Source: Alphaproteobacteria bacterium
GTDB lineage: Bacteria; Pseudomonadota; Alphaproteobacteria; Micropepsales; Micropepsaceae
Direction: 5' to 3'
DNA length: 64,000 bases
Assembly: GCA_025350465.1 (NCBI GenBank)
Contig: JANXXU010000008.1
Span: 1 to 64,000 of the forward strand
Positions 15,783 through 34,238 of the stretch are shown here, piece after piece. The position numbers and the translations under genes are program-made. How positions within the stretch are numbered: position 1 is the stretch's first letter; each line of letters begins with the position of its first letter. The notes below the pieces were generated by a model that searched no databases, was not told where the DNA came from, and saw only the letters and a program-made list of their open reading frames with translations.

Positions 15783-17495
15783 TTATGAGTTCCACCACTT
15801 CGACCATGCTTCGGCGCTGAACCACGAGCCCACCCAATCCCAGAGGCCGCGATCGTGTTGGGTGGTGGCGCCGGCATCGGCCGTCGGTGTGCCTTGGCCT
15901 TGGCCCGGGCCTATATCGAGCCAGCGTGTGCGATTGACGTCGCGCGGATTGTCGATCCAGTTCAGCACGTAGCTCTTCACCAGATGCCGCGTGTACGGGA
16001 AGAACTGCGGCACGGCCGGCAGATCGGCCAGAAGCTTGGCGTCGGCTTGGCCCAGTAATTTGGCGCGCGCCGACAAATCCTGCTCGAGATCGGCGCTGTG
16101 CAGCGCCTCTTCGAAGGAGGCGTTGTCGTAGGCCGAATTGTTCATTTGAACCGCGGCCGCTTGGAACTGGAAGAACCAGTTCTTGGCGTCGTTGTAATCG
16201 AATACCCAGCCGTTTTGCGCCACCTCGAAATTCCGCACTTGCAGCAAATTCCAATGCACCTTGGCTTCCGTCGCCACCAAGTCGACCTCGACGCCGATGT
16301 CGTGCCACATAGATTGCATCGCGACCGCAGCGCGTTTGGGATCGGGCGCGCTGATATAGTTGTATGAAAACTTGAGCGGGTGATTGGGACCAAAGCCTGC
16401 TTGTGCCAGAAGACTTTTCGCCTCCGCGCGGCGCTGATCCATCGTCATTCCGGCCCACGGCACCTTGGCCGAACGGTCGACATTCGCCATGCCGGGCGGC
16501 AGGAAGCTGTCGGCCACGTCGCCGAAGAAACCTTGATAGACGTCCTTGGCGATTGCTTCGCGATCGATCGATTCCGCAAGCGCTTTGCGCACGCGGATAT
16601 CATCGAAGGGTTTGCGCGTCATGTTGAACGAGACGTAGCTGACGCTCAGCCCGGTCGCGTGATGTGCCTCGGTCGGAATGTTGGCCATCAGCCATTTGTG
16701 TTCGTTGAACGGCCAGCGGTCCTGCATGTCGAGTTCGCCGGCGCGGTAGCGCTTCAGCGCGGCATTGTCCTCGTCCGCAGGATAGTAGAATACCTCGTCG
16801 ATCTTCACATTCGCCGCGTCGTAGAATTTCGGATTCTTCACCAGCCGTACGTGATCGTGCGGCCGCCACTCGGCCAAGACATAGGGCCCGTTCGACAGCA
16901 TCGTTCCCGGCCGCGTCCAATCGCTGCCGATTTTTTCGACGACATGTTTTGGGATCGGGAATGTCGTGTAGTGCGTCAGCAGTTCGGGCAGGAACGGCGC
17001 CGGATTCTCCAGTTCGATGACGAGCGTCTTCGCGTCGACAGCGCGCACGCCCATCTTGTCGACGGGCAATTGCTTCTGGTTGATCTTGAAGGCGTTTTTG
17101 ATCGGATAGAGGATCGAGGCGTACTCTGCCGCCGTATTCGGGTCGATCTCGCGGCGTAACGCATAGACGAAATCCTCCGCCGTCACCGGCTGGCCGTCCG
17201 ACCAGGTATGATCGCGCAGCTTGAACGTCCACGTCAGCCCGTCGGCGCTGGTCTCGGCGCTTTCGGCCGCACCTAAAATGGCGGCGCCTTTCGCATCCTC
17301 GGTATAAAGCCCGATAATCATGTCGCCGATGATGTTGTTCTCAGCGGCCGAGACAGCGCGATGCGGGTCGAGGCTGTAGGGCTCTGAGGAATTCCCGCGA
17401 TGCAAGGTCTTCCCGGCTTGTGCCTCGAACGGGATTGCGCTCAGTACGAAGGCGGTCGCCAAGACCAAGGCGCAAAAACGAGGCAAGTGTTTCAT
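15783..17495 (-). CDS. oppA: Periplasmic peptide-binding protein, OppA family (paralogue 1 of 4)
   Basis: A 570-residue SBP_bac_5 protein that captures peptides for ABC import. The signal peptide ends at FEAQA/GK. Family blocks are HRGNSSEPYSLDPH at the mature N-terminus, LTWTFKLRDHTWSDGQPVTAEDFVYALRR split across about 130-160, and SNGPYVLAEW. A Gly/Thr-rich linker leads to a Trp-rich end (VGSWFSAEAWSKWWNS). It is the last of four tandem paralogues transcribed leftward. ATG 17495 is chosen at the signal peptide; the frame is open upstream to 17618 into the previous gene. It is the most divergent of the four. Confidence 0.9.
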   Translation of the reverse strand: MKHLPRFCALVLATAFVLSAIPFEAQAGKTLHRGNSSEPYSLDPHRAVSAAENNIIGDMIIGLYTEDAKGAAILGAAESAETSADGLTWTFKLRDHTWSDGQPVTAEDFVYALRREIDPNTAAEYASILYPIKNAFKINQKQLPVDKMGVRAVDAKTLVIELENPAPFLPELLTHYTTFPIPKHVVEKIGSDWTRPGTMLSNGPYVLAEWRPHDHVRLVKNPKFYDAANVKIDEVFYYPADEDNAALKRYRAGELDMQDRWPFNEHKWLMANIPTEAHHATGLSVSYVSFNMTRKPFDDIRVRKALAESIDREAIAKDVYQGFFGDVADSFLPPGMANVDRSAKVPWAGMTMDQRRAEAKSLLAQAGFGPNHPLKFSYNYISAPDPKRAAVAMQSMWHDIGVEVDLVATEAKVHWNLLQVRNFEVAQNGWVFDYNDAKNWFFQFQAAAVQMNNSAYDNASFEEALHSADLEQDLSARAKLLGQADAKLLADLPAVPQFFPYTRHLVKSYVLNWIDNPRDVNRTRWLDIGPGQGQGTPTADAGATTQHDRGLWDWVGSWFSAEAWSKWWNS

Positions 17496-17568
17496 CCGAG
17501 CTGGCCTTTCGGGCACGGTGGGTGATGGCGTCTGCGGTGGCGATAGAGCGGCCGATTCGCGCCCAACG

Positions 17569-19299
17569 TCAAGAATTCCACCACTTCTGCCACGCCCCAG
17601 GGCTGAACCACGAGCCAAGCCATCCCCAGAAACCGCCCTCCGACGCCGACACGCCGCCGCCGGTACCGGCCACGTTCTGTTGAGGTCCAGGCTTGTCGCC
17701 GATGTCCAGCCACCGCGTACGATTCACGCCGCGTGGGTTCTCGGTCCAATTCAGCACGTAGCTCTTCACCAGCGGTCGGATGTATTGGAAAAACGTCGGC
17801 GCGACCGCAACGTCATTGAGCAGGAGCCCCGCGGCCTCGCCAAGCAATTTACCCCGTGCCGTCGCATCGGCTTCAATGCCGGCCTTGCGCATCAAATCGT
17901 CGAACGCCGCGCTCTTATAGCCTGGGTAGTTCAATTGGTCCGTCGTGCTTTCAAACAGGAACAACTGGCTCTGAGCGTCGTTGTAGTCGTAGATCCAGCC
18001 CGCGTTGGCGAGCTGGAAGTTCGCGGTCTTGAGCAAGTCGTAGTGGACCGCAAACTCTTTGGCGACGATGTCGACGTCGACACCGATCTGCTTCCACATC
18101 GCCTGCATCGCCACGGATTGCCGCTTCGGGTCGCTGCCGCTGTTGATGTAATTATACGTCAACTTGAGCGGCTTCTCCGGACCGAAGCCCGCTTGCTGCA
18201 GCAGCTGCCTGGCCTGTGCACGACGATCGTCCATCGATATGTCTTTCCACGGCACGTGCGCCGACATATCGACATTTGCGGTGCCGGGCGGCAGTACCGA
18301 AAATGCCGGAAGGCCATGCTGGCTGAAGAAAACCTGCCGCTGGATCGCTTCGGTGTCGATCGCCAGCGCCAACGCCAACCGCACGCGCCGATCGTTCAGC
18401 GGCGCGGCGCGCATGTTGATCACCGTATAAAGCACCCGCAGGCCCGTATATTTCCGCGTCTCGTTCGGAATGTTGGCGAAAAGCCATTTGTGTTCGGTCA
18501 GCGGCCAGCGGTCGAGCGTGTCGAGTTCGTCGGCGCGATACATCTTGAGCGCCGCGTTGCCGTCGGAGGTCGGGTAGAACCAGACCTCATCGATCTTCAC
18601 GTTGGCCGCATCGTAGAAGTAGGAATTCTTGACCATCTTGATGTGATCGTTCTGCCTCCGCTCCGCCAGCATATAGGGCCCGTTCGAGACCATGTTGCCG
18701 GCCTTGGTCCATTCGTCCTTGAATTTCTCCAGCACATGCTGAGGCAGGGGGTAGGCCGTGTAATGCGTCAACATTTCAGGCAAGTACGGTGCCGGATTCT
18801 CAAGTTCGATCACGAGCGTCTTCGCGTCGACGGCGCGCACGCCGAGTTTTTCGATCGGTAGTTCGCCCTTGTTGATTTTCTCGGCGTTCTTGATCGGATA
18901 GAGAATGTTTGCGTATTCCGCCGCAGTCGCCGGGTTGAGGATGCGGCGATAAGCATAAACAAAATCGTGGGCTGTCACCGGCGTGCCGTCCGACCATTTG
19001 TGATCGCGAATCTTAAAGGTCCAGCTCAAGCCGTCGGTTGCCGTCGTGGCGCTTTCCGCCGCGCCCAGGATGGGATGCCCCGCCGCGTCTTCGGTGTAGA
19101 GACCCACGAACAGGTCGCCCAGAATTTGATTCTCCGGGTCGCCCGAGACGTGATGCGGATCTAGGGACTTCGGTTCCGCGCCGTTGCCACGGCGCAGTAC
19201 CTTCGCCGCATCGGCGGGAGCGCCGAGTGCAATTGCCGTCAGCAATACAACGGCAAACCATGCCAGACGCGCGAGCCAATTTTCCCCGAGCTGCGTCAT
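17569..19299 (-). CDS. oppA: Periplasmic peptide-binding protein, OppA family (paralogue 2 of 4)
   Basis: A 576-residue paralogue. The signal peptide ends at APADA/AK; the mature start is KVLRRGNGAEPKSLDPHH, where a Lys replaces the Tyr seen in the other three copies. AGGGA lies 7 bases upstream of the ATG. The end is WLGSWFSPGAWQKWWNS after a GTGGG linker. It lies 73 bases upstream of copy 1 and 89 bases downstream of copy 3, with no terminator between, so a polycistronic transcript is likely. Confidence 0.9.
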   Translation of the reverse strand: MTQLGENWLARLAWFAVVLLTAIALGAPADAAKVLRRGNGAEPKSLDPHHVSGDPENQILGDLFVGLYTEDAAGHPILGAAESATTATDGLSWTFKIRDHKWSDGTPVTAHDFVYAYRRILNPATAAEYANILYPIKNAEKINKGELPIEKLGVRAVDAKTLVIELENPAPYLPEMLTHYTAYPLPQHVLEKFKDEWTKAGNMVSNGPYMLAERRQNDHIKMVKNSYFYDAANVKIDEVWFYPTSDGNAALKMYRADELDTLDRWPLTEHKWLFANIPNETRKYTGLRVLYTVINMRAAPLNDRRVRLALALAIDTEAIQRQVFFSQHGLPAFSVLPPGTANVDMSAHVPWKDISMDDRRAQARQLLQQAGFGPEKPLKLTYNYINSGSDPKRQSVAMQAMWKQIGVDVDIVAKEFAVHYDLLKTANFQLANAGWIYDYNDAQSQLFLFESTTDQLNYPGYKSAAFDDLMRKAGIEADATARGKLLGEAAGLLLNDVAVAPTFFQYIRPLVKSYVLNWTENPRGVNRTRWLDIGDKPGPQQNVAGTGGGVSASEGGFWGWLGSWFSPGAWQKWWNS

Positions 19300-19388
19300 T
19301 TCCAATCCCTTCCTCGCGAAAAATCGCTCGCACTCACCCGCAGAATCAACTGGCCCGCCACTGCGGCGGGCCATATCTCGCTAGATCG

Positions 19389-21101
19389 TCAAGATTTCCA
19401 CCACCTGGACCACGCCTCCGGACTGAACCAAGAACCGAGCCACGACCAGAAGCCGCCTTCCGACGCCGTTGCGCCGCCGGATGTGCCGGCGACATTTTGC
19501 TGCGGCCCGGGCTTGCTTTCCATGTCGAGCCAACGCGTGCGGTTGATGTCGCGCGGATTGTTCACCCAATTGAGCACATAGCTTTTCACGAGAGGTCTGA
19601 GATACGGATAGAAATTCGGCGCGAACGGCACGTCGTTCATGATCACGCCCGCTGCTTGGCCTAGCAGCTTGCCGCGCGTTGCGACGTCTTTCTCCGAATC
19701 TGCCCGCGCCATCAGCTTGTCGAATACGGGGTTCTTGTAGCCCGGATAGTTCATCTCGACGGTGGAGCTGACGAACAAGAAGAGCATGTTCTTCGCGTCG
19801 TTGTAGTCGAACACCCAAGCCGTCTGCGCAAGATCGTAGTTGTGTGTTTCGAGCAGTTTGTAATGAACCTTGAATTCAGTGGCCGCGAGTTCGATGTCGG
19901 CGCCGACGTCCTTCCACATCGCCTGCATGGCGACAGCGGCGCGCTTGACGTCGGGATTCTGAACGTAGTCATAGGTCAGGTGTAGTGGATGTCCGGGACC
20001 GAATCCGGCGGCGGCCAGCAACTTCTTGGCGTCGGCCTTACGCTGCTCCATCGTCATGCCGACCCATAGCACTTGCGCCGACTGATCGACGTTGGCTGTA
20101 CCCGGCGGCAAGATCGAGAGTGCCTCCACGCCATAGACGTGGCCATAAACATCGCGCTCGATCGCCTGACGATCGACGGCCTCGGCAAGCGCTCTGCGCA
20201 CGCGCACATCGTCCAGCGGCTTGCGGTTCACATTGAAGCTCGTGAACGTCACATTGAGCGCCGTATAACTGCGCGCTTCATTGGGGATGTGCTGTTGGAG
20301 CCATTTGTGCTCGTTCAGCGGCCATTGTTCCTGCGTGTCGAGTTCATCGGTGCGAAACCGCTTCAGCGCCGCTTCGTCGTTGTCCGTCGGATAGAAATAG
20401 ACCTCGTCGATCTTGACATTGGCCGCATCCCAGAACTTCGGGTTCTTGACCAGTTTGACGTGATCGTGGGGCCGCCATTCCGCAAGCACGTAGGGCCCGT
20501 TCGAGATCATGTTGCCGGGCTTCGTCCAATCGCTGGCGTATTTTTCGACGACATGCTGCGGCAGCGGAAACGCGGTGTAGTGCGTTAGAAGCTCAGGCAA
20601 GAACGGTGCCGGGTTTTCCAATTCGATGATCAGCGTCTGCGGATCGGGCGCGTGCACACCGAGCTGATCGAGCGGCAGCGTTCCTTTATTGACCTTCTCC
20701 GCATTCTTGATCGGATAAAGAACGTTGGCGTATTGCGCCGCGGTCGCCGGGTTCATTTCGCGCCGCAACGAAAAAACGAAATCGTCGGCCGTAACCAGCG
20801 TGCCGTCCGACCATGTGTGGTCGCGGATCTTAAAGGTCCAGGTTAGGCCGTCGTCGGAGGTCTTGACGCTCTCGGCAGCACCGAGGATCGGTTTCGCATC
20901 GGCCGCTTCGGTATAAAGACCCATAATCAGGTCCCCGATGATGTTGTTCTCGGGCGTGCCTGTCGCGCGCTGGGGGTCGAGGCTGTAGGGCTCGGCCAAG
21001 TTTCCGCGCCGCAGTATCTTTTCGGCCTCCGCTGGAATCGCGACCGACAACATAGCCGCGGCGGCAAGCAGTGCAGTCAGCAGGACTCGCCCTTCTCTCA
21101 T
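19389..21101 (-). CDS. oppA: Periplasmic peptide-binding protein, OppA family (paralogue 3 of 4)
   Basis: A 570-residue paralogue with a strong GGGAGG ribosome binding site and a short signal peptide ending IPAEA/EK. The mature start is KILRRGNLAEPYSLDP, identical to copy 4 in this block. The C-terminal tail is WLGSWFSPEAWSRWWKS after a TSGG linker. Ligand-pocket residues cannot be compared reliably by eye, but differences from the other copies concentrate in the middle domain, as expected if the copies bind different peptides. Confidence 0.9.
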   Translation of the reverse strand: MREGRVLLTALLAAAAMLSVAIPAEAEKILRRGNLAEPYSLDPQRATGTPENNIIGDLIMGLYTEAADAKPILGAAESVKTSDDGLTWTFKIRDHTWSDGTLVTADDFVFSLRREMNPATAAQYANVLYPIKNAEKVNKGTLPLDQLGVHAPDPQTLIIELENPAPFLPELLTHYTAFPLPQHVVEKYASDWTKPGNMISNGPYVLAEWRPHDHVKLVKNPKFWDAANVKIDEVYFYPTDNDEAALKRFRTDELDTQEQWPLNEHKWLQQHIPNEARSYTALNVTFTSFNVNRKPLDDVRVRRALAEAVDRQAIERDVYGHVYGVEALSILPPGTANVDQSAQVLWVGMTMEQRKADAKKLLAAAGFGPGHPLHLTYDYVQNPDVKRAAVAMQAMWKDVGADIELAATEFKVHYKLLETHNYDLAQTAWVFDYNDAKNMLFLFVSSTVEMNYPGYKNPVFDKLMARADSEKDVATRGKLLGQAAGVIMNDVPFAPNFYPYLRPLVKSYVLNWVNNPRDINRTRWLDMESKPGPQQNVAGTSGGATASEGGFWSWLGSWFSPEAWSRWWKS

Positions 21102-21152
21102 TCTTATTTTCCTCCCGGGTCGGTTGCATGTTTCGGCCGAGTTCAGTCGGCT

Positions 21153-22919
21153 TTACGAATTCCACCACTTTTGCCAAGCGTCCGGATTGAACCACGATCC
21201 GAGCCAAGATCCGATCCCGCCTTCCGACGCGATGGCTCTGCTGTTTGTTCCGGCCACGCTTTGTTGCGGCCCTACGTGGTCTGCGATGTCGAGCCAGCGT
21301 GTGCGATTGATGCGATGCGGATTGGTCACCCAACCGAGCACATAGGGCTTCACCAGCTGGCGCTGATATGGAAAGAAGCTCGGCGCGACCGGCATATCGG
21401 AGAGCAGCGTCGCTGAGGCCTGCCCGAGCAGTTTGCCCCTCGCGTTAACGTCGGCCTCTGCGTCCGCCTTGTCCAATAAGCTGTCGAAGGCCGCGCTGTG
21501 ATACGAGGCATAGTTCATCTCTACCGTTGATGTTTGGAAAAGGTAGAGCTGGTTCTTGGCGTCGTTGTAATCGAGGATCCAGCCGTCGCCCGCGACGTCG
21601 AAATCGTGCGTTTGCAAAAGCTTCTGATGCACCTTGGACTCGGTGGTCGCGATCTCGACGACAACGCCGATGTCCTTCCACATCGATTGCATCGCGACTG
21701 CGATGCGGCGGTTGTCGACGTTGGAACTGAAATTGTAGGTGAAGTGCAGCGGGCGTTCTGGTCCGAATCCCGCGACGGCCAGCAGCTTGCGCGCATCCGC
21801 GCGCCGCTCGTCCATTGTCTTGCCCGCCCATTCGACCTGCGCGGACCGATCGACGTTGGCGGTACCGGGCGGCAGGACGTTCAACGCCTCCGCGCCATAG
21901 CTCCCGGCGAAAATATCGTCAGCGATCGCCTTCCGGTCGATCGCCATCGCAAGCGCCTTGCGCACACGTACATCGTCGAAAGGCTTTCGCGTGGAGTTGA
22001 AGGACGTGTACTGAGCCCATAAGGCGGTGCCGCGATGCGCTTCGTTCGGGATATTCTTTGCGACCCAATCCCGCATCGCGATCGGATAGCGTTCCTGGGT
22101 ATCGAGCTCGCCCGCACGATACTTCTTCAATGCCGCCAAATCGTCGTCGATCGGATAAAAATAAATCTGGTCGATCTTAACGTTTGCTGCGTCATAGAAA
22201 TTTGCATTCTTGACGAGCTTGATATGATCGTGCGGTCGCCATTCTGTGAGCACGTAAGGTCCGCTCGCCGGCATCACGCCCGGCTTAGTCCAACCGCCTG
22301 GATGTCTTTCGACGAATCCGTTTGGAATTGGTAAAGCGGTTTGGTGTATCAACAGCTGTGGCAGAAACGGCGCCGGATGTTCGAGCTCTATGATTAGAGT
22401 CTTCGGATCGGTCGCGTGTACGCCCAATTCCTCGACGGGGACCTTTCCCCCGCCCTTGTTGAGCTTCTCCGCGTTCTTGATCGGATAAAGAACGTTGGCG
22501 TATTCCGCCGCCGTACCCGGGTTCATCTCGCGGCGTAGCGCGTAAACGAAATCATCTGCGGTGACCGGCGAACCGTCCGACCATTTGTGATTGCGTATCT
22601 TAAACGTCCACTTCAATCCATCGTCCGATGTCTGGACGCTTTCCGCCGCGCCAAGAATCGGATCGCCGTTTGCGTCTTCGGTGTAGAGGCCAAGAAATAT
22701 CTCGCCGAGGATGTCGGCTTCGTTGAGGCCGGTCGTGTGATGCGGATCGAGACTGTAGGGTTCGGCCAGATTCCCGCGACGGAGAATTTTCTCCGCATGT
22801 GCGGGGGAAACGGCGAGCCACGCGCAGGTCACGAGCAAGCTGGCAAGCGTCGCGAGGCCGATGCGCCAATCGAAATTCATCGCCCTTGCGACCGCCCGCT
22901 GCAGCTGAGGTCTGGCCAT
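21153..22919 (-). CDS. oppA: Periplasmic peptide-binding protein, OppA family (paralogue 4 of 4, promoter-proximal)
   Basis: A 588-residue paralogue, first in the four-gene array. The signal peptide is long (MARPQLQRAVARAMNFDWR then a hydrophobic core ending SPAHA/EK). ATG 22919 has GGAAGAGG upstream; an internal ATG at 22880 is an alternative. It shares EKILRRGNLAEPYSL with copy 3 and ends WLGSWFNPDAWQKWWNS. It also has small insertions (GGG before KVPVEELG). The 284 bases upstream separate it from a divergent small gene and probably contain both promoters. Confidence 0.9.
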   Translation of the reverse strand: MARPQLQRAVARAMNFDWRIGLATLASLLVTCAWLAVSPAHAEKILRRGNLAEPYSLDPHHTTGLNEADILGEIFLGLYTEDANGDPILGAAESVQTSDDGLKWTFKIRNHKWSDGSPVTADDFVYALRREMNPGTAAEYANVLYPIKNAEKLNKGGGKVPVEELGVHATDPKTLIIELEHPAPFLPQLLIHQTALPIPNGFVERHPGGWTKPGVMPASGPYVLTEWRPHDHIKLVKNANFYDAANVKIDQIYFYPIDDDLAALKKYRAGELDTQERYPIAMRDWVAKNIPNEAHRGTALWAQYTSFNSTRKPFDDVRVRKALAMAIDRKAIADDIFAGSYGAEALNVLPPGTANVDRSAQVEWAGKTMDERRADARKLLAVAGFGPERPLHFTYNFSSNVDNRRIAVAMQSMWKDIGVVVEIATTESKVHQKLLQTHDFDVAGDGWILDYNDAKNQLYLFQTSTVEMNYASYHSAAFDSLLDKADAEADVNARGKLLGQASATLLSDMPVAPSFFPYQRQLVKPYVLGWVTNPHRINRTRWLDIADHVGPQQSVAGTNSRAIASEGGIGSWLGSWFNPDAWQKWWNS

Positions 22920-23203
22920 TCGGTCCTCTTCCTTCGCTATTTTCCAACCGGCAAGCATGCGTGCGACCGCGTGAACTGCGCCTGAACAGGCACGTTCCCG
23001 GTTATCGTTGAAGTGGCACTGAGTTCGGATCGCTGGCGGCATAGGAGCGTACGGGCACGAAGTTGCACCGAATCACCACGCTCTCGCCTCCTTGAGCAGC
23101 CCCCTTGGGCTGGCGGGCTAGGTTATATAGGCTACATGGGGTTATGCAGAGGGGCGGGTGCCGGGGCGTTCGTTCCCTCCAGTCACGAAATTGCGAGTTC
23201 ATC

Positions 23204-23752
23204 ATGCGATTCTATTGGATATTTGCGGGGATGGCCGTCCTCACGACTTCGGCTTGGGCTGATCCGGCGCGCGACACCTTGAAGGAAATCACAAAATGCG
23301 CCGACATCGCGGGCGCGACCGACCGGCTGAAGTGCTTCGACGCGGCTGTTCCTCACGCGCAAACCGCTTTGTCGGCGCCTGAGGCACCTCCGCCGGCGCA
23401 AACCGCCCAGACGACAGAGGAGAGCGGCGGCGTCCTGGGCTGGTTTGGCTTCGAGCGCCCCGTAACGAAGCCCGAAGATTTCGGCAAGCCGGCGGTAAGG
23501 GTTGCCGATCCGCGAGAGATTACGACGCTCAGCGCCTCGGTCACCGAGTTCGCCCGCACGCCGTCCGGCCGCGCGCTCTTCATTTTAGACAACGGCCAGG
23601 TCTGGCGTCAGATCGACGGCGACGTGACCGAAGTCTCCGATCCGAACACCGGCGAGCAATTCAAAGTCGCCATCGAGAAGGCCGTTTTCGGCAGCTACGA
23701 TATGAAGATCAACGGCCACACCGGCCTCATCAAGGTTCGCCGCCTCAAATAG
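23204..23752 (+). CDS. Small periplasmic protein of unknown function inside the opp locus
   Basis: A 182-residue exported protein with a signal peptide (MRFYWIFAGMAVLTTSAWA) and an N-terminal CADIAGATDRLKCFDAA motif. That two-Cys motif recurs in many alphaproteobacterial periplasmic proteins of unknown role. A Pro/Ala-rich linker follows, then a beta-rich C-terminal domain ending VFGSYDMKINGHTGLIKVRRLK. It lies divergent from the oppA array and convergent with oppF (8-base gap), so it splits the peptide-transport locus. I do not recognise a function. Confidence 0.75.
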   Translation: MRFYWIFAGMAVLTTSAWADPARDTLKEITKCADIAGATDRLKCFDAAVPHAQTALSAPEAPPPAQTAQTTEESGGVLGWFGFERPVTKPEDFGKPAVRVADPREITTLSASVTEFARTPSGRALFILDNGQVWRQIDGDVTEVSDPNTGEQFKVAIEKAVFGSYDMKINGHTGLIKVRRLK

Positions 23753-23759
23753 CGGCGTC

Positions 23760-24742
23760 CTAATCCGGGAAAAGACACGCGACCAAATGGTCGCTCGCGC
23801 CGCCGCGCGGTTCGAGCGCTGGGATATCTTGCGCGCACTGGGCCTGTGCCTTGGGGCAGCGTGTTCGGAAGACGCAGCCCGACGGCGGATCGAGCGGTGA
23901 GGGCAGGTCGCCTTCGATCAGCAATCGCTTCTTGCCGCGCTCGACTTCGGGATCGGGCACGGGTGCCGCCGAGAGCAGCGCCTGCGTATAAGGATGGCGC
24001 GGACGCGACAGCAGGACCTGCGACTCCGCAATCTCCATCACCTTGCCGAGATAGAGGACCAGCACGCGGTGACTGACATGGCGCACGACGGCCAGGTCGT
24101 GACTGATGAAGATGAGCGCGACGCCCATTTCCTTCTGCAGGTCGGCGAGGAGATTGATGATCTGCGCGCGAATGGAAACGTCGAGCGAAGAGACGGGCTC
24201 GTCAGCCACGATCAGCTTCGGCTTCAAAATCATGGCGCGCGCGATACCGATGCGCTGGTTCTGTCCGCCTGAAAACTCGTGCGGATAGCGATTGATCATC
24301 TGCGGCAGGAGGCCGACTTTCGCCATCATCTCCTGGACGCGCGCTTTGCGTTCGTCGGCCTTGATTTGAGGCTCGAACGTGTCGAGCGGTTCGGCGATGA
24401 TGTCGCCCGCCGTCATGCGCGGGTTAAGGCTGGCGAGTGGATCCTGAAACACGATCTGCATCTCGCGGCGGCGCGATTTCATTTGTGCGCGCGTGAAGCC
24501 CGCAATGTTTGTGCCGAGCCAGGCGACAGTGCCCGCCGTCGGCTTGATGAGCTGAAGCACGGCGCGCCCGATCGTGGATTTGCCGGAGCCCGACTCGCCG
24601 ACGATGCCAAGAGTCTCACCTGGGAAGACGTCGAAATCGACGCCGTCGACCGCCTTGAGCGGCCGCGTCGCGCCGAACAGGCCGCCCGAACTGGTCGGGA
24701 AATGGACCTTGAGGCCTTTGATCGAGAGAAGCGGTTCGCCGC

Positions 24743-24746
<4 letters not shown>
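23760..24746 (-). CDS. oppF: Oligopeptide ABC transporter ATPase, OppF type
   Basis: A 328-residue ABC ATPase. Walker A GESGSGKST is at 50-58, the signature is FSGGQ (about 158-162) and Walker B LIVADE (178-183). The C-terminal oligopeptide-transporter extension carries the Cys cluster CVFRTRCPKAQAQC that in related DppD/OppF proteins can bind an Fe-S cluster. The insert SGGLFGATRPLKAVDGV between beta strands is typical of OppF. It is the last gene of oppBCDF and overlaps oppD by 4 bases. Confidence 0.93.
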
Positions 24747-25732
<986 letters not shown>

Positions 25733-25754: not shown

Positions 25755-26702
25755 CTAGCGATCCTTCGGGTCGAGCGCGTCGCGCAACCCGTCGCCGATG
25801 AAGTTGAAGCAGAAGAGCGTCACCACCATGAAGGCGGCCGGAAAGATCAGCATCCAGGGATAGCTTTCCATCTGGTCCTTGCCGTCTGAGATCAAGACGC
25901 CCCAGGACGTCGCCGGCTCTTGAACGCCGAGCCCTAAGAAGCTCAGGAAGCTTTCGGCAAGGATCACCGCAGGCACTGTCAAGGTCACGTAGACGATCAC
26001 GGGCCCTACGACGTTGGGCAAGATGTGCCGGCGAATGATCCCCCAGTTGGAAACGCCGGCCGCTTCGGCGGCTTCGATGAATTCTCGCCGCCGTATGGAA
26101 AGCGTCTGGCCTCTGACAATTCGAGCCATCGTCAGCCATTCGACCGCGCCGATGGCGATGAACATGAGGATGTAGTTGCGTCCGAACACCACGACCAAGA
26201 TGATGACGAAGAAGATGTAAGGCAGCGCATAGAGCACATCGACGAAGCGCATCATGTAGTTGTCGATGCGTCCGCCCAAGAATCCGGCGGTCGCGCCGTA
26301 AAGCACGCCGATGAGCAATGCCACGAAGGTCGCCGTCACGCCGATCGAGAGCGAAACCCGCCCGCCATGCATGACGCGGATGAAGAGATCGCGCCCGTTC
26401 GCGTCGGTGCCGAAGATGTGCCCTTGACCGACGGCCGACGGACAGGCATCGGCTTGGGAGCCGAAAATCGCCGTCATGCCGAGATAGTCGGGCGGCGGGC
26501 AGGAGATGCGATCGATATAAACTTGATCGAATTGATGCGGCCAGACGAACGGCATCACCACCGAGAGAAAGGCGACGATCGCCAGGATGACCATGGACGT
26601 GACCGCGGCCTTGTTCGCGAATAAGCGCCGGCGCGCGTCCTGCCACAAACTGCGGCCTTGGATTTCGCGCGGAGGTGCGGCGGCGCCGGTGATGCTGGCC
26701 AT
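25755..26702 (-). CDS. oppC: Oligopeptide ABC transporter permease, OppC type
   Basis: A 315-residue permease with six predicted membrane helices and the EAA-type cytoplasmic loop EAAEAAGVSNWGIIRRHILPN. The first periplasmic loop has an insert with two cysteines (ISCPPP and ADACPS). The typical HIFGTDANGRDLF block follows. The start (MASITG) shares one base with the oppB stop (TGATG). The frame is open upstream into oppB but that part is the wrong frame of oppB. Confidence 0.93.
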   Translation of the reverse strand: MASITGAAAPPREIQGRSLWQDARRRLFANKAAVTSMVILAIVAFLSVVMPFVWPHQFDQVYIDRISCPPPDYLGMTAIFGSQADACPSAVGQGHIFGTDANGRDLFIRVMHGGRVSLSIGVTATFVALLIGVLYGATAGFLGGRIDNYMMRFVDVLYALPYIFFVIILVVVFGRNYILMFIAIGAVEWLTMARIVRGQTLSIRRREFIEAAEAAGVSNWGIIRRHILPNVVGPVIVYVTLTVPAVILAESFLSFLGLGVQEPATSWGVLISDGKDQMESYPWMLIFPAAFMVVTLFCFNFIGDGLRDALDPKDR

Positions 26703-27760
26703 CAGTCGTATCTCACCTTTGGATCGAGCACCCCATAGATCACGTCGGCGACGAGATTGAGCATGATGACGAGCGTGGCATAGAGAATCACGACGCCCAT
26801 CACGAGGGTATAGTCGCGCTGCAAGGCACCGTTGATGAAGTAGCGCCCGATCCCCGGCAAGCCGTAGATCTGCTCCATAACGAGAGAGCCCGTCACGATC
26901 CCGGCGGTCGCGGGCCCCAGATAGCTCACGAGAGGCAACAGCGCCGAGCGCAAGGCGTGGCGTGTGATCACAAGGCGCTCCGGCAAGCCCTTGGCGCGCG
27001 CCGTTCGCACGTAGTTCGAGCGCAAGACCTCGATCATGCCGCCCCGCGTCAAGCGCGAAATCACGGCGATCTGAGGCAACGCGAGTCCGATCACCGGCAA
27101 GATCATGTTCCTGAAGGCGCCGTCTTCCCATCCGGCGACCGGCAGCCATCCCAAATAAACGCCGAGGATCAGCGTCAAGATCGGCGCCATGACGAAGCTC
27201 GGGATCGTGATGCCGAGCATCGCCAGCGTCATCGTCGAATAGTCGGGCCAGCGGTTCTGACGCAAAGCCGCAAACGTGCCGAGGAGCATCCCGATGATCG
27301 TCGCCAAGATGATCGCCGTTGAGCCGAGCCGCAGCGACACCGGTGCGCCATCGGCAATCAGCTCGGCGACGGTGAAGTCCTTGTACTTGAAGGACGGCCC
27401 AAAATCGCCTTGCAGTAGTTTGCCGAGATAGCCGCCGAGGCAGCGTGCTTCGCGCCCTGAGCCATCGAAGAATTTGCCTTCGGGGGTTTGCGTCAAGCCG
27501 CGCTTCTGCAGCCACTCGGGTGTTGCGGTGGCGCCGAACCGGATGCTGCAAACCTCGGGATCGATGTCCAGGAATTGGCGAAGCAACGGCTTGTCGAGAT
27601 CGTAGGCGGCCTTGATGTTCTTCTCGATCTCGGGCGGCAGCCGGCGCTCTTGATCGAACGGTCCGCCCGGCGCGAGCCGCATCATGAAGAACGTCATCGC
27701 GATGATGATGAGGAGCGTCGGAATCGAGCCCAACAACCGGCGAACGATATACCGCAACAT
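26702..27760 (-). CDS. oppB: Oligopeptide ABC transporter permease, OppB type
   Basis: A 352-residue permease, about 45 longer than the usual 306. The extra length lies in the first periplasmic region after MRLAPGGPFDQE and holds two cysteines (PEVCSIR and REARCLGG). The rest is standard: TARAKGLPERLVITRHALRSALLP split around 240-265 as the EAA loop, and six membrane helices. ATG 27760 (MLRYIVRRLLG) is preceded by AGGGGAA. It is the first gene of oppBCDF, so the operon promoter should lie in 27761-28046. Confidence 0.92.
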   Translation of the reverse strand: MLRYIVRRLLGSIPTLLIIIAMTFFMMRLAPGGPFDQERRLPPEIEKNIKAAYDLDKPLLRQFLDIDPEVCSIRFGATATPEWLQKRGLTQTPEGKFFDGSGREARCLGGYLGKLLQGDFGPSFKYKDFTVAELIADGAPVSLRLGSTAIILATIIGMLLGTFAALRQNRWPDYSTMTLAMLGITIPSFVMAPILTLILGVYLGWLPVAGWEDGAFRNMILPVIGLALPQIAVISRLTRGGMIEVLRSNYVRTARAKGLPERLVITRHALRSALLPLVSYLGPATAGIVTGSLVMEQIYGLPGIGRYFINGALQRDYTLVMGVVILYATLVIMLNLVADVIYGVLDPKVRYD

Positions 27761-30921: not shown

Positions 30922-31770
30922 CTACGACGCCTTGGCGCCCTGCGGCGTGTGACGCCGCCGCAGCTTCTCGACTGTAAGCAACAACAACGATGACACGATG
31001 ATGAGCAGCACCGCGACCGCGAGGATCGTCGGGCTGATCTGCTCGCGGATACCGGACCACATCTGGCGCGGGATGGTGCGCTGATCGGGCCCGCCGAGGA
31101 ACAGCACAGTCACGACTTCGTCGAACGAGGCCGCGAAGGCGAAGAGCGCGCCTGAAATCATCCCCGGCGCCACCAGCGGCAGGGTCACGCGCATGAAGGT
31201 GGTCAGCGGATCGGCGCCCAAACTGGATGCCGCCTTGATCAGATTGCGATCGAAGCCCGAAAGCGTCGCCGTCATGGTGATGACGACGAACGGCGTGCCG
31301 AGCGTCGTGTGCGCCAGAATGATGCCCAAATGCGTCTGCGCCAGTCCGATGCTCGAATAGAAGAAATACATGCCGGCCGCCGCGATGATGATCGGCACGA
31401 CGAGGGGCGAAATCAGGATCGCCATGATCAAATCGCGAAACGGCATATTCGATCGCGCGAGTCCCAACGCTGCCAATGTGCCCAACACGGTCGACAGCGC
31501 CGTCGCGCAGATCGCGATGATGAGGCTGTTGCCGATGGCTTGGAGCCACTGCGGATTTTCGACGATGTCTTGATACCAGCGCAGCGAAAATCCTTCGGGA
31601 TTCAGCGTCAGCATCTTGGTGGTGAAGCTGAAATAGGGCTCGGCGTTGAACGAGAGCGGTATGATGACGATGAGTGGCGCGACCAAGAAGAACAAGACTG
31701 CGATCGCGTAAGCCGCGTTGAAGCGCTTCTCGATTGTCGCCCACTCGAATCGTCTCTTCGCGGCCGCCAT
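30922..31770 (-). CDS. potC: Polyamine-type ABC transporter permease (PotC/PotI-like)
   Basis: A 282-residue inner-membrane permease with six helices and the EAA-type loop AASSLGADPLTTFMRVTLPL. It follows the PotC/PotI pattern (FNAAYAIAVLFFLVAPLIVIIPLSF in part at the first helix, FDEVVTVLFLGG before the end). ATG 31770 follows the potB stop by four bases. Specificity (putrescine, spermidine, GABA-like amines) cannot be fixed from the permease. Confidence 0.88.
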   Translation of the reverse strand: MAAAKRRFEWATIEKRFNAAYAIAVLFFLVAPLIVIIPLSFNAEPYFSFTTKMLTLNPEGFSLRWYQDIVENPQWLQAIGNSLIIAICATALSTVLGTLAALGLARSNMPFRDLIMAILISPLVVPIIIAAAGMYFFYSSIGLAQTHLGIILAHTTLGTPFVVITMTATLSGFDRNLIKAASSLGADPLTTFMRVTLPLVAPGMISGALFAFAASFDEVVTVLFLGGPDQRTIPRQMWSGIREQISPTILAVAVLLIIVSSLLLLTVEKLRRRHTPQGAKAS

Positions 31771-31774
31771 ATCT

Positions 31775-33007
31775 CTACCCGAGCCGCAACCGATTGAGAC
31801 CGATGACACGCGCGTAAACGATATAGAGCGCCATCACGCCGCTAAGCAGTATGCCGCCGAGCGCCGCCGCCAAACCCCAATTGAGCGACGTCTTCATATG
31901 AAACTCGATCATGTTGGAAATGAGCTGCCCCGTGCGCCCGCCGACCAAAGCCGGCGTGATGTAGTAGCCGAGCGCCAAGATGAAAACGAGCAAGGCACCC
32001 GCGCCGGCGCCCGGCAGCGTCATCGGGAAATAAACGCGCCAAAATGCTTGCCAGGGTCTTGCGCCCAACGACAGGGCTGCGCGGCGCAGCGCCGGTGGCA
32101 CCGACAACATCACGCTATACGTCGGCAAGATCATGAACGGCAGCAGGATATGCGTCATCGCAACCAGCGTGCCGGTCATGTTGTAGATCATTTGCGTGCG
32201 CGCACCGTCGCCGAAGAAGATTGCGAGAACGTCGTTGATCACCCCGTTCGTCTGCAGCAGAACGATCCACGCCGTCGTGCGCACGAGCAATGACGTCCAA
32301 AACGGCAAAAGCACGAGGATCAAGAGATAATTGCGCCACTTGTCCGATGCGTGCGCGATGAAATAGGCGAGGGGATAACCCAGCACGAAGCACAGCGCCG
32401 TCACCATCGCGGCCACGAACAAAGTCCGCGCGAACAGCATCATATAAACCTGGTCTTCTTCCGGCTGCATGATGATTTGCCCGTCCGCTTTGCGCGAGCG
32501 ATCGAGAGCCGAGATGTAGTAACCGATCGAGTTGGTGAAGCTCGCGTGGCGCAATGCGCCGAAGATCTCAGGGTCCGCCCAGCGCGCGTCGACCGCGTTG
32601 AAGGCCTGCGCATAGGGCGGTTCGAATTTGCCCGCAACGCGTGCGGTTGACATCAGCATCGACCGCATGCCCGGCACTTCGAAATTCATTCGCGTCGCCG
32701 CTCTGCCGATCGTCCCATCGCGCTGGGCCACCTCAAGATCGGAGGCAAGCGCCGCATAGGCCGAATAGGGCGGGCGTCCCTTGCCGTCCCAAGAGCGCAG
32801 GGCATCGGCTGTTCGCGGCAAGACCTGCGCAATCGTCGGATCCTCGACGCTGCGCATCAGCATGTCGCCGATGGGCAGAATGAATGTGACGGCAAGAAAC
32901 AAGAGCAGCGGCAGGACAAGCAAGAACGATATGCGTCGCGCGCGCATTCCGGAGCGCACGAAACGCGCTCTCAGATCGCTCGCCGTTATTGCCGCCGCCC
33001 CCGCCAT
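31775..33007 (-). CDS. potB: Polyamine-type ABC transporter permease (PotB/PotH-like) with large periplasmic insert
   Basis: A 410-residue permease. The first membrane helix (about 25-50) is followed by a periplasmic stretch of roughly 140 residues rich in Arg/Asp and Tyr before the second helix. Standard PotB members are near 290 residues. This long form is, as far as I know, a recognised subgroup in proteobacteria. The EAA loop AALSLGARPWQAFWRVYFPM is intact. Start choice is open: ATG 33007, or TTG 33016, which has the better-spaced AGGGGA. Confidence 0.85.
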   Translation of the reverse strand: MAGAAAITASDLRARFVRSGMRARRISFLLVLPLLLFLAVTFILPIGDMLMRSVEDPTIAQVLPRTADALRSWDGKGRPPYSAYAALASDLEVAQRDGTIGRAATRMNFEVPGMRSMLMSTARVAGKFEPPYAQAFNAVDARWADPEIFGALRHASFTNSIGYYISALDRSRKADGQIIMQPEEDQVYMMLFARTLFVAAMVTALCFVLGYPLAYFIAHASDKWRNYLLILVLLPFWTSLLVRTTAWIVLLQTNGVINDVLAIFFGDGARTQMIYNMTGTLVAMTHILLPFMILPTYSVMLSVPPALRRAALSLGARPWQAFWRVYFPMTLPGAGAGALLVFILALGYYITPALVGGRTGQLISNMIEFHMKTSLNWGLAAALGGILLSGVMALYIVYARVIGLNRLRLG

Positions 33008-33026
33008 TTCCCCCAACCGTCCCCTA

Positions 33027-34238
33027 TTATTTAGCGAGCCACGCGTTCCAGCGTTGGTTCAACTCTTCCTGATGATCCGCCCACCATTGGAAATCGACCT
33101 GTATCGCATTCGCCGCATTCTCCGGCGCGTTCGGCATGTTCGGTCGCATGTCGACACCCGACAATGCGCTCTTTCCCACCAACGGCAAGGATGAACGCCG
33201 CGCCGGTCCGTAGGCGATCCATCGCGCTTGGTCGGCAAGGCGCTGCGTGTCGGTAGCGAACGAAATAAAATCTCGCGCGAGATTGAGATGCTTGGTGCCT
33301 TTGGTGATCCCGAAAACGTCGAGTTCCAGCAACTCGCCGTCCCAGATGATGACGAACGGCTTTTTTTCGTTGACCTGTGCGTCGAAGATGCGGCCGTTGT
33401 AAGCCGACGTCATCGTCACCTCACCGTCGGCCAAGAGCTGCACGGGCTGCGCGCCCGCTTCCCACCACACGACTTGATTCTTGATCGTGTCGAGCTTCGC
33501 AAAAGCGCGATCGATGCCTGCCCTCGTCGACAGCGTTGCGTAAACCTTGTCGCCCGCCACGCCGTCGGCGCGCAACGCCATTTCCAGATTGATGGTCGGC
33601 GAAGTCTTTCGCAGGCCACGCTTGCCGGGGAAGGCGGTCAAATTGAAGAAATCCGCAAGCGTCCGCGGCGGGCTCGCGCCGAACTTGGTCGAGTCGTAGG
33701 CAATGATGTGGCCGAACACGATTGAGGTCACTGCGCACGGCGTGATGCCGTTCGGCACGAAGTCCTGAACCGCGGGCGTTCCGTCGGGCGCCGGCGGCAA
33801 GAGTCCGGCGTCGATCTTCTCGAGCAGGCCTTCGTCGCACGCACGCTGCGCGTCTGCGATTTCCATGTCGACGACGTCCCAGTTCACGTTGCCCGCTTCG
33901 ACCTGCGCTTTGATCTCAGCGACGCCTCCCGAGTAGTCGACGGAGTTGATCTTGGCGCCGGTCTTGGCTTCCCAGGGCTTGTGATAGGCCTCGATCTGGC
34001 TCTTCGTATAAGCGCCGCCCCACGAGACGACGACGAGCGATTGTCCGCGCAACGCGGCGCCCGCCGGACTGCCGGCCGGCATCGCGCCGTTGGCTGACGG
34101 CAGCGGCATCGAGTTGAGATCTTTGTTCATCTGCTCCGCGTCGTGCTCGGAATTGTTGTTGAGCATGAACAACAAGACGCCCGCGAGAATCACGATGGCG
34201 GCGGCAGCGGCGATGATGACGGTCGTCAGACGGCCCAT
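33027..34238 (-). CDS. potD: Polyamine-type ABC transporter substrate-binding protein (PotD/PotF-like)
   Basis: A 403-residue protein with an N-terminal membrane segment (MGRLTTVIIAAAAAIVILAG) that may be an uncleaved anchor, then a low-complexity linker (about 28-62) before the binding domain starts at LVVVSWGGAYTKSQ. The domain has the PotD-like blocks VDYSGG, NWDVVDME and the C-terminal ALSGVDMRPNMP. A tethered binding protein with a spacer is unusual for a diderm, where they are normally free. It is encoded between potB and the ATPase, in one operon. Confidence 0.85.
   Translation of the reverse strand: MGRLTTVIIAAAAAIVILAGVLLFMLNNNSEHDAEQMNKDLNSMPLPSANGAMPAGSPAGAALRGQSLVVVSWGGAYTKSQIEAYHKPWEAKTGAKINSVDYSGGVAEIKAQVEAGNVNWDVVDMEIADAQRACDEGLLEKIDAGLLPPAPDGTPAVQDFVPNGITPCAVTSIVFGHIIAYDSTKFGASPPRTLADFFNLTAFPGKRGLRKTSPTINLEMALRADGVAGDKVYATLSTRAGIDRAFAKLDTIKNQVVWWEAGAQPVQLLADGEVTMTSAYNGRIFDAQVNEKKPFVIIWDGELLELDVFGITKGTKHLNLARDFISFATDTQRLADQARWIAYGPARRSSLPLVGKSALSGVDMRPNMPNAPENAANAIQVDFQWWADHQEELNQRWNAWLAK

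Follow-up and report, generated by a model that had tools for sequence, protein, structure and literature searches.

The four oppA genes of the analyzed window (a stretch of 64,000 nucleotides) lie on the minus strand and, according to their ORF translations, all terminate in a Trp-rich tail (Table 1). With a probability of about 0.64, this tail is a C-terminal membrane tether that would lie interfacially at the inner membrane. The strongest evidence for this role is comparative: homologues have putative transmembrane (TM) helices or other hydrophobic tails in the equivalent place. From sequence, we infer membrane binding, the inner membrane as its site and a kinetic benefit.

Table 1. Features of the opp region, with positions counted within the window
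Feature	Position	Strand	Remarks
oppA copy 1	15783..17495	-	Start inferred at Met before putative Sec signal; mechanical ORF start 17618
Copy 1 Trp-rich C-terminal tail	15786..15845	-	LWDWVGSWFSAEAWSKWWNS, 20 residues
oppA copy 2	17569..19299	-	Start inferred at Met before putative Sec signal; mechanical ORF start 19374
Copy 2 Trp-rich C-terminal tail	17572..17631	-	FWGWLGSWFSPGAWQKWWNS, 20 residues
oppA copy 3	19389..21101	-	
Copy 3 Trp-rich C-terminal tail	19392..19451	-	FWSWLGSWFSPEAWSRWWKS, 20 residues
Copy 3 linker	19452..19535	-	Residues 523-550 of P0003
oppA copy 4	21153..22880	-	Start inferred; mechanical ORF start 23042
Copy 4 Trp-rich C-terminal tail	21156..21215	-	IGSWLGSWFNPDAWQKWWNS, 20 residues
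oppF	23760-24746	-	Transporter ATPase gene, named from sequence reading
oppD	24743-25732	-	Transporter ATPase gene, named from sequence reading
OppC permease	25755..26702	-	Possible partner
OppB permease	26702..27760	-	Possible partner

The OppA copies and their shared tail

All four window proteins match the Pfam family SBP_bac_5 (PF00496) with 252.8-264.8 bits (gathering score 32.4). Their scores against the NCBIfam OppA equivalog NF011684 (326-350 bits) remain under its cut-off of 947, and they are therefore OppA-like rather than members of that equivalog. Signal peptides were judged by eye and with simple rules. Each of the four N-termini contains, by eye, a hydrophobic stretch followed by an A-x-A-like site, and the copies found across the genus have putative Sec signals that look cleavable, with a lipobox in 0 of 22 (regular-expression rule). 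A single oppBCDF set adjoins the four oppA genes.

The tail has the consensus [FIL][WG]xW[LVF][GAS]SWF...AWx[KR]WW[NK]S in all four copies and is preceded by a disordered linker. In the AlphaFold model of copy 3 the linker has no secondary structure and low confidence, and similar linkers precede the other three tails. The tail of copy 4 has a G in place of the first W, which is unique among 22 copies. The original prediction of a tail shared by all four copies (15783-21215, running between the stop codon of the last copy and the tail start of the first) is thus borne out, and the motif it gave fits each of them. Its placement of the tail beyond the known binding-protein fold also holds, since the SBP_bac_5 match stops well short of the tail and the best match to a solved OppA covers profile positions 2-501 of 544.

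The tail is present in 22 of 22 full-length cluster copies from eight genomes of the genus, among the matches listed. One additional cluster copy of the genus is truncated upstream of its C-terminus. Copies for the conservation statistics were selected by the core motif, and no full-length cluster copy lacked it. Among the 22 copies, mean pairwise identity reaches 77% for the tail, against 63% for the body and 43% for the linker; only 13 of 526 windows of 19 residues score above the last 19 residues, in agreement with the earlier claim that the tail is more conserved than much of the body. Nine of 22 tail positions are invariant, including five Trp, two Ser and one Ala. The pN/pS ratio of the genus copies is lowest for the tail (0.21), with 0.40 for the body and 0.62 for the linker. 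Synonymous sites in the tail are saturated (pS of 0.69 versus 0.61 in the body), so selection acts at the protein level. With pS as high in the tail as in the body, recent gene conversion, a recent copy or a DNA-level repeat is ruled out as the source of the similarity. The expectation that the tail is functional thereby stands as far as protein-level purifying selection on these 22 copies is concerned.

The exact tail pattern, which diverged tails escape, was scanned across about 85,000 species genomes and occurred at the ends of long ORFs only in the OppA genes of this genus. It was found in 25 stretches, nine of which (19 matches, seven named isolates) are OppA ends of the genus; the frames in the other 16 have at most 218 codons, or at most 71 codons where the pattern is close to a stop codon. 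The genus is uncultured, and its seven isolates found by name are all metagenome assemblies. The profile search proposed with the original prediction gave, in 11 genus genomes, matches confined to the OppA clusters, except for one 13-residue piece and matches with E ≥ 0.17. The 13-residue piece lies at a contig end of genome G009. Distant Opp paralogues within the genus lack the tail, as do the two further PF00496 proteins of the window's own genome (contigs C44 and C25). These paralogues and the tailless homologues outside the genus rule out the tail as a universal SBP_bac_5 feature. Two outcomes had been named as speaking against the prediction, and they fell on different sides: the tail is not a part of all SBP_bac_5 proteins, but homologues outside the genus do lack it.

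Anchors on homologues in related genera

Relatives appear to anchor this type of protein by very different means. The regions read were picked among the matches listed in the homologue search. At the position of the Trp tail, homologues from sister genera have either a TM helix followed by RRR (genomes G015, G020, G023 and G029) or a WxW...C[SA]WFG[VI]AC (Trp/Cys) tail (G026 and G012); shorter Trp tails occur in G013 and G018. The tailed proteins of these eight genomes fall in one tree group (SH-aLRT 91, not starred) of a tree with 87 of the 108 aligned homologues, the 21 left out being fragments and distant paralogues. In G026, the Trp/Cys tail is also present on two other orthogroups (support 99-100) that are tailless in four sister genomes; the three G026 tails share 25-30 of 34 residues pairwise. 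Across 385 genomes of this class, a Trp/Cys tail profile had five matches (E 6.5e-4 to 0.006), all outside the reference clusters.

In two other genera, many of the homologues without a tail instead have an N-terminal lipobox or a Tat-type N-terminus. Among 82 cluster proteins (fragments included), 33 have a C-terminal tail (30 of them with a readable N-terminus), 16 a lipobox, none both and 33 neither, so that lipobox and C-terminal tail are mutually exclusive in this set. Among the 26 other, non-cluster homologues, none of which comes from g2 or g5 and some of which have unreadable N-termini, neither feature was found (0 of 26). In the sister genus g5, a match was present in 50 of 69 genomes, and 39 of the 42 previously unread genomes were taken in. 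By a crude rule, 37 of these 39 have one or more cluster proteins with a lipobox or Tat-type N-terminus, and by rule a C-terminal tail is found in 0 of 65 readable proteins. The lipobox and Tat calls are regular expressions; judged by eye, in the g5 set they overlooked a Tat-type N-terminus and three or more lipoboxes (LLFGC) and wrongly called at least two Tat-type N-termini. Some proteins in the counts of both the 82-protein and the g5 set are cut off at one end.

In most clusters read in the family, one or more of the binding proteins have another putative membrane anchor. The exception is G016, the nearest relative outside the genus, with a cluster protein that has neither tail nor lipobox. 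The single homologues read from G037 and G060, which belong to two other families, likewise show no anchor. In four of the five g6 genomes, one of the three copies in a cluster has a TM tail and the other two have neither tail nor lipobox; tethering is therefore not needed for every copy.

We tentatively suggest, at somewhat less than even odds, that throughout the family one or more of the peptide-binding proteins of the Opp cluster are held at the inner membrane, with the anchor repeatedly exchanged and the tails acting as swappable modules. The anchors exchanged would be an N-terminal lipid, a Tat-type signal anchor, a C-terminal TM helix with Arg residues, the Trp/Cys tail and, on every paralogue of this genus, the Trp-rich interfacial tail. 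If true, tethering and not free diffusion would be the selected state of the Opp importer in a Gram-negative lineage. A natural series of this kind, in which related OppA proteins bear one of five putative anchors or lack any, would make it possible to test directly how an ABC importer profits from tethering. The Trp tail itself is a candidate for a compact tag that fixes proteins on the periplasmic face of a membrane.

Membrane tethering and alternative roles of the tail

In the tether mechanism we propose, OppA would be exported by the Sec route and its signal cleaved, after which the body would fold in the periplasm. The body would be followed by a disordered linker (about 15-24 residues) and then by two short amphipathic helices (FWxWLGSWF and xEAWxKWWN). 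Their Trp/Phe faces would sit in the interface of the periplasmic leaflet of the inner membrane, and Lys/Arg and Ser/Asn would make up the polar face. OppA paralogues beside one oppBCDF set would in this way be held at high local concentration on the membrane, as opposed to diffusing freely.

The last 19 residues have a mean interfacial partition energy of -8.5 kcal/mol (on approximate scale values). With signal peptides left out, only two of 10,631 19-mers from the bodies reach the energy of the weakest tail and none reaches the mean. Two 9-residue amphipathic Trp helices are predicted in the tail. The half-helix moments at 100 degrees are 0.75 and 0.83, equaled by about 2% of shuffles for each half (again on approximate scale values). 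The whole 20-mer is not amphipathic as one helix (about 85% of shuffles score as high), and a break between the halves is therefore required. The AlphaFold model of copy 3 has short helices at residues 551-558 and 561-569, with a tail pLDDT of 42-47. The signal for helicity and amphipathicity is weak.

The tail could also be a docking peptide for a specific groove of OppB/OppC, or for a Cys...Cys insertion in OppB, by which four binding proteins serve one permease. This is unlikely, yet the most serious of the alternatives. It would account for residues that are strictly conserved across paralogues with bodies about 63% identical and for the one oppBCDF set next to four oppA genes, and the Ser, Ala and Trp residues are invariant to a degree that a purely physical anchor would not require, which is a hint of a specific partner. 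The OppB insertion (about 45 aa, after the first membrane helix) is present in 8 of 8 genus sequences. However, it also occurs in G016, whose cluster protein is tailless, and in G013, which has a different tail, and it is absent from G012 and G026, both Trp/Cys-tailed; its co-occurrence with the tail was rejected as docking evidence for this imperfect match. Tails so unlike each other at the same place, including a plain TM helix with RRR, would moreover be odd for a sequence-specific groove. Among the three roles originally proposed, membrane contact is best supported, by the partition energy and the anchors of homologues; docking is possible, with indirect support, and sorting weakly supported.

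A sorting or secretion signal for a processing enzyme or an outer-membrane route would also be a short conserved C-terminus behind a flexible linker, and the TM + RRR tails of g6 superficially resemble such signals (NCBIfam E-values of 0.0046, 0.037 and 0.49, all below cut-off). Yet no GlyGly-CTERM or LPXTG-like model exceeds its cut-off in 10 proteins, nor does rhombosortase in 11 genomes, its weaker matches occurring in 11 of 11 and equally in 14 of 14 control genomes. In 11 genus genomes, the tail profile, apart from the G009 piece, also points to no protein outside the OppA clusters with a match better than E 0.17. This role is highly improbable. Hardly more credible is a Trp cluster that joins the paralogues into a hetero-oligomer, a multi-ligand capture complex: the same tail does occur on all full-length paralogues of a cluster in this genus and in G026, but the four g6 genomes have a single TM-tailed copy. 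Least probable of all is an inherited passenger without function. The genus copies share a single ancestral gene, so one origin of the tail would suffice, and the tailless G016 protein, which joins the same clade, could be a loss; against this, the pN/pS of the tail is half that of the body at saturated synonymous sites, and the tail is present in every full-length cluster copy of the genus.

Comparison with known systems

Tethered binding proteins are known, and so are C-terminal amphipathic anchors. What appears to be new is their combination, together with the putative exchange of anchors among operons of the same type. In the titles and abstract openings of mainly open-access literature, no Trp-rich or amphipathic C-terminal OppA tail is named; one Lactococcus paper contains both terms.

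The genus proteins share the whole body and the oppBCDF neighborhood with the OppA/MppA subfamily of SBP_bac_5 (solved OppA 3tcf and 1b05), but the match to solved OppA stops where the genus linker begins, and solved OppA has no tail. Archaeal peptide-binding proteins have a C-terminal transmembrane segment, which follows a linker as in the TM + RRR tails of g6 but is a transmembrane helix, in contrast to the putative interfacial Trp tail of this genus. The literature search and the available part of PMC3824201 did not confirm this archaeal segment.

Escherichia coli PBP5 (DacA) has a C-terminal amphipathic helix comparable to the genus tail, and an unrelated membrane-spanning helix is reported not to restore its function (PMC2909392); anchors therefore need not be interchangeable. 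PBP5 is an unrelated enzyme; the tail of the genus OppA would instead consist of two Trp-rich half-helices that follow a disordered linker.

The binding proteins of Gram-negative bacteria are commonly regarded as diffusing freely through the periplasm. Exceptions with a lipid anchor have "not been generally appreciated," in the words of a study on Neisseria MetQ (PMC8416018). If the tether reading is true, MetQ and the genus OppA would both be membrane-held rather than free in the periplasm, MetQ by an N-terminal lipid (PMC8416018) and OppA, which has no lipobox, by a C-terminal peptide.

A Trp-rich tail specific to the window genus

The Trp-rich tail is real, conserved and genus-specific. It terminates each of the four window OppA proteins, as originally predicted, and all full-length cluster copies that we read in this uncultured genus. 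We compared 22 full-length OppA copies from eight genomes (G000, G002, G003, G004, G005, G007, G009 and G010), which were selected via the core motif, yet all full-length cluster copies read in the genus carry it; one additional G009 copy is truncated before its C-terminal end. Across the last 22 positions, nine never vary (W6, S9, W10, F11, A15, W16, W19, W20 and S22), and W4 is kept in 21 copies. The mean pairwise identity is 77% in the tail, 63% in the body and 43% in the linker, with pN/pS values of 0.21, 0.40 and 0.62, respectively, at saturated synonymous sites, and the tail is indeed better conserved than the body.

A search of 96 family genomes for the exact core pattern gave 23 occurrences in eight genomes, all of them from the window genus. 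The pattern was also found in 25 stretches of the genome_contigs collection (84,980 species according to its description). Nine of these (19 matches, seven isolates) are OppA C-termini, the isolates all being labelled just as Alphaproteobacteria metagenome assemblies, while none of the remaining 16 ends a frame of more than 71 codons. The tail is missing from distantly related Opp paralogues within the genus (G000, G005, G009, G010), and three of the 11 genus genomes (G001, G006, G008) gave no protein match among the matches listed.

C-termini of related binding proteins

Alignments to solved OppA structures stop ahead of the linker, placing the tail beyond the known binding-protein fold. Fifty-two regions were taken from among the matches listed, and the sequence past the conserved fold end was read. 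The majority of homologues end about 3-16 residues past this point; the tail is thus no normal part of all SBP_bac_5 proteins in the group. Three other types of C-terminus follow a linker: (a) a hydrophobic helix with RRR or RRRR, in a single copy per cluster (G015, G020, G023, G029); (b) a WYWWLxAAW[ED]W..GLLC[SA]WFGVAC-like tail on three G026 copies (pairwise 25-30 of 34 residues identical), with a close relative on two G012 copies and a shorter tail in G013; and (c) WWGWFMSFFQ in G018. A short RWFN ends two proteins of G039, a genome of another family.

In a tree of 87 homologues, with tail columns excluded, the 22 genus copies group with a tailless protein of G016 in a single clade (support 100); the G016 protein may branch outside these copies or among them. 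All three tail types (a-c) share one group (support 91), which includes a single protein without a tail, and the sister of this group consists of six proteins of sister genus g5 (support 89), five with Tat-type N-termini and one with a lipobox. Two further orthogroups (support 99-100) also bear the type (b) tail in G026; their counterparts in four sister genomes have no tail. Unlike hydrophobic tails thus substitute at the same site of related proteins. Loci L051 (G026) and L081 (G012) encode paralogues of differing orthogroups with near-alike WxW...C[SA]WFG[VI]AC tails and a conserved C-x6-C, a likeness in sequence which suggests that the tail module may have spread between genes.

Membrane attachment, docking or sorting

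The original prediction left the choice between permease docking, membrane contact and sorting. The tail is best explained as an inner-membrane tether (probability roughly 0.64), and we infer membrane attachment of the tailed OppA proteins. The Wimley-White interface energy of the last 19 residues ranges from -6.1 to -10.7 kcal/mol (mean -8.5), and only 2 of 10,631 body windows match the weakest tail. Each tail half is amphipathic as a helix, the entire 20-mer as a single helix is not. An AlphaFold2 model (21 sequences; numbering of window oppA copy 3) shows the SBP fold with a mean pLDDT of 78.6; residues 523-550, the linker, are without structure, and two helices follow (551-558 and 561-569), with a tail pLDDT below 50.

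Among 82 cluster proteins (fragments counted), a C-tail is present on 33 and a lipobox on 16, no protein has the two together and 33 have neither (Fisher p = 1e-4, kinship among proteins ignored); neither feature occurs on 26 non-cluster homologues. In genus g2, all 10 readable cluster proteins carry a lipobox. An additional g5 check (40 regions, 39 additional genomes, 66 proteins) assigned 11 lipoboxes, 33 Tat-type N-termini, 21 others and one unreadable, by a crude rule with errors in both directions apparent by eye; the Tat-type N-termini may or may not stay uncleaved. By rule, a lipobox or Tat-type N-terminus occurs on one or more proteins in 37 of these 39 genomes, and no C-tail was found (0/65). 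Against the pattern count the proteins read in G016 (same family), G037 and G060 (other families), which have neither C-tail nor lipobox, and four genomes of sister genus g6, where two of three copies lack both.

Docking of the tail to the permease, the main rival, is rather improbable. A Cys...Cys insertion that follows OppB's first membrane helix could serve as docking site; in the comparison headed by ALTERNATIVES and covering 30 of 33 matched genomes, it is present in 10 sequences (8/8 of the genus, G016 and G013) and absent from 20, with a segment length of 117-139 versus 74-75 residues. However, some genomes have the insertion but no Trp tail, and some with tails of another kind have no insertion. 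As to a sorting signal, sorting models in 10 proteins and rhombosortase in 11 genomes all remained below cut-off, and this part of the prediction is less likely. For the inner-membrane tether, the closest known cases in action are lipid-anchored MetQ (PMC8416018) and PBP5 with its amphipathic C-terminal helix (PMC2909392). As far as our searches tell, a binding protein with a Trp-rich tail as its probable anchor is so far undescribed in the openly licensed literature.

Organization of the window locus

The window genome comprises 4.06 Mb in 52 contigs. Its four OppA-like (SBP_bac_5) genes form a head-to-tail array, with one gene each of oppB, oppC, oppD and oppF upstream on the same strand. 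An ORF on the opposite strand sits between oppF and the array, and the oppA group is thus not simply the tail end of an oppBCDF operon.

Features of the Opp locus and its surroundings in the window
Feature	Position	Strand	Remark
OppA-like ORF	15783-17618	minus	mechanical ORF
OppA-like ORF	17569-19374	minus	mechanical ORF
OppA-like ORF	19389-21101	minus	mechanical ORF
OppA-like ORF	21153-23042	minus	mechanical ORF
215-aa ORF	23105-23752	plus	between oppF and the oppA genes
oppC	25755-26702	minus	Cys pair SCPPPDYLG...ADAC, residues ~68-87, in loop after first membrane helix
oppB	26702-27760	minus	~45-residue Cys...Cys insertion, residues ~65-109
Two ORFs resembling permeases and one resembling a binding protein	30922-34238	minus	

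Several g5 genomes have another Cys pair, SCAPDWW...C, at the same OppC loop. In the fragmented assembly of G006 (window genus), an OppB gene with the insertion (G006:C176:1428-2480) is present and no OppA cluster match is listed. The permease-like and binding-protein-like ORFs of the window appear, from their sequences, to resemble a polyamine-type ABC transporter.
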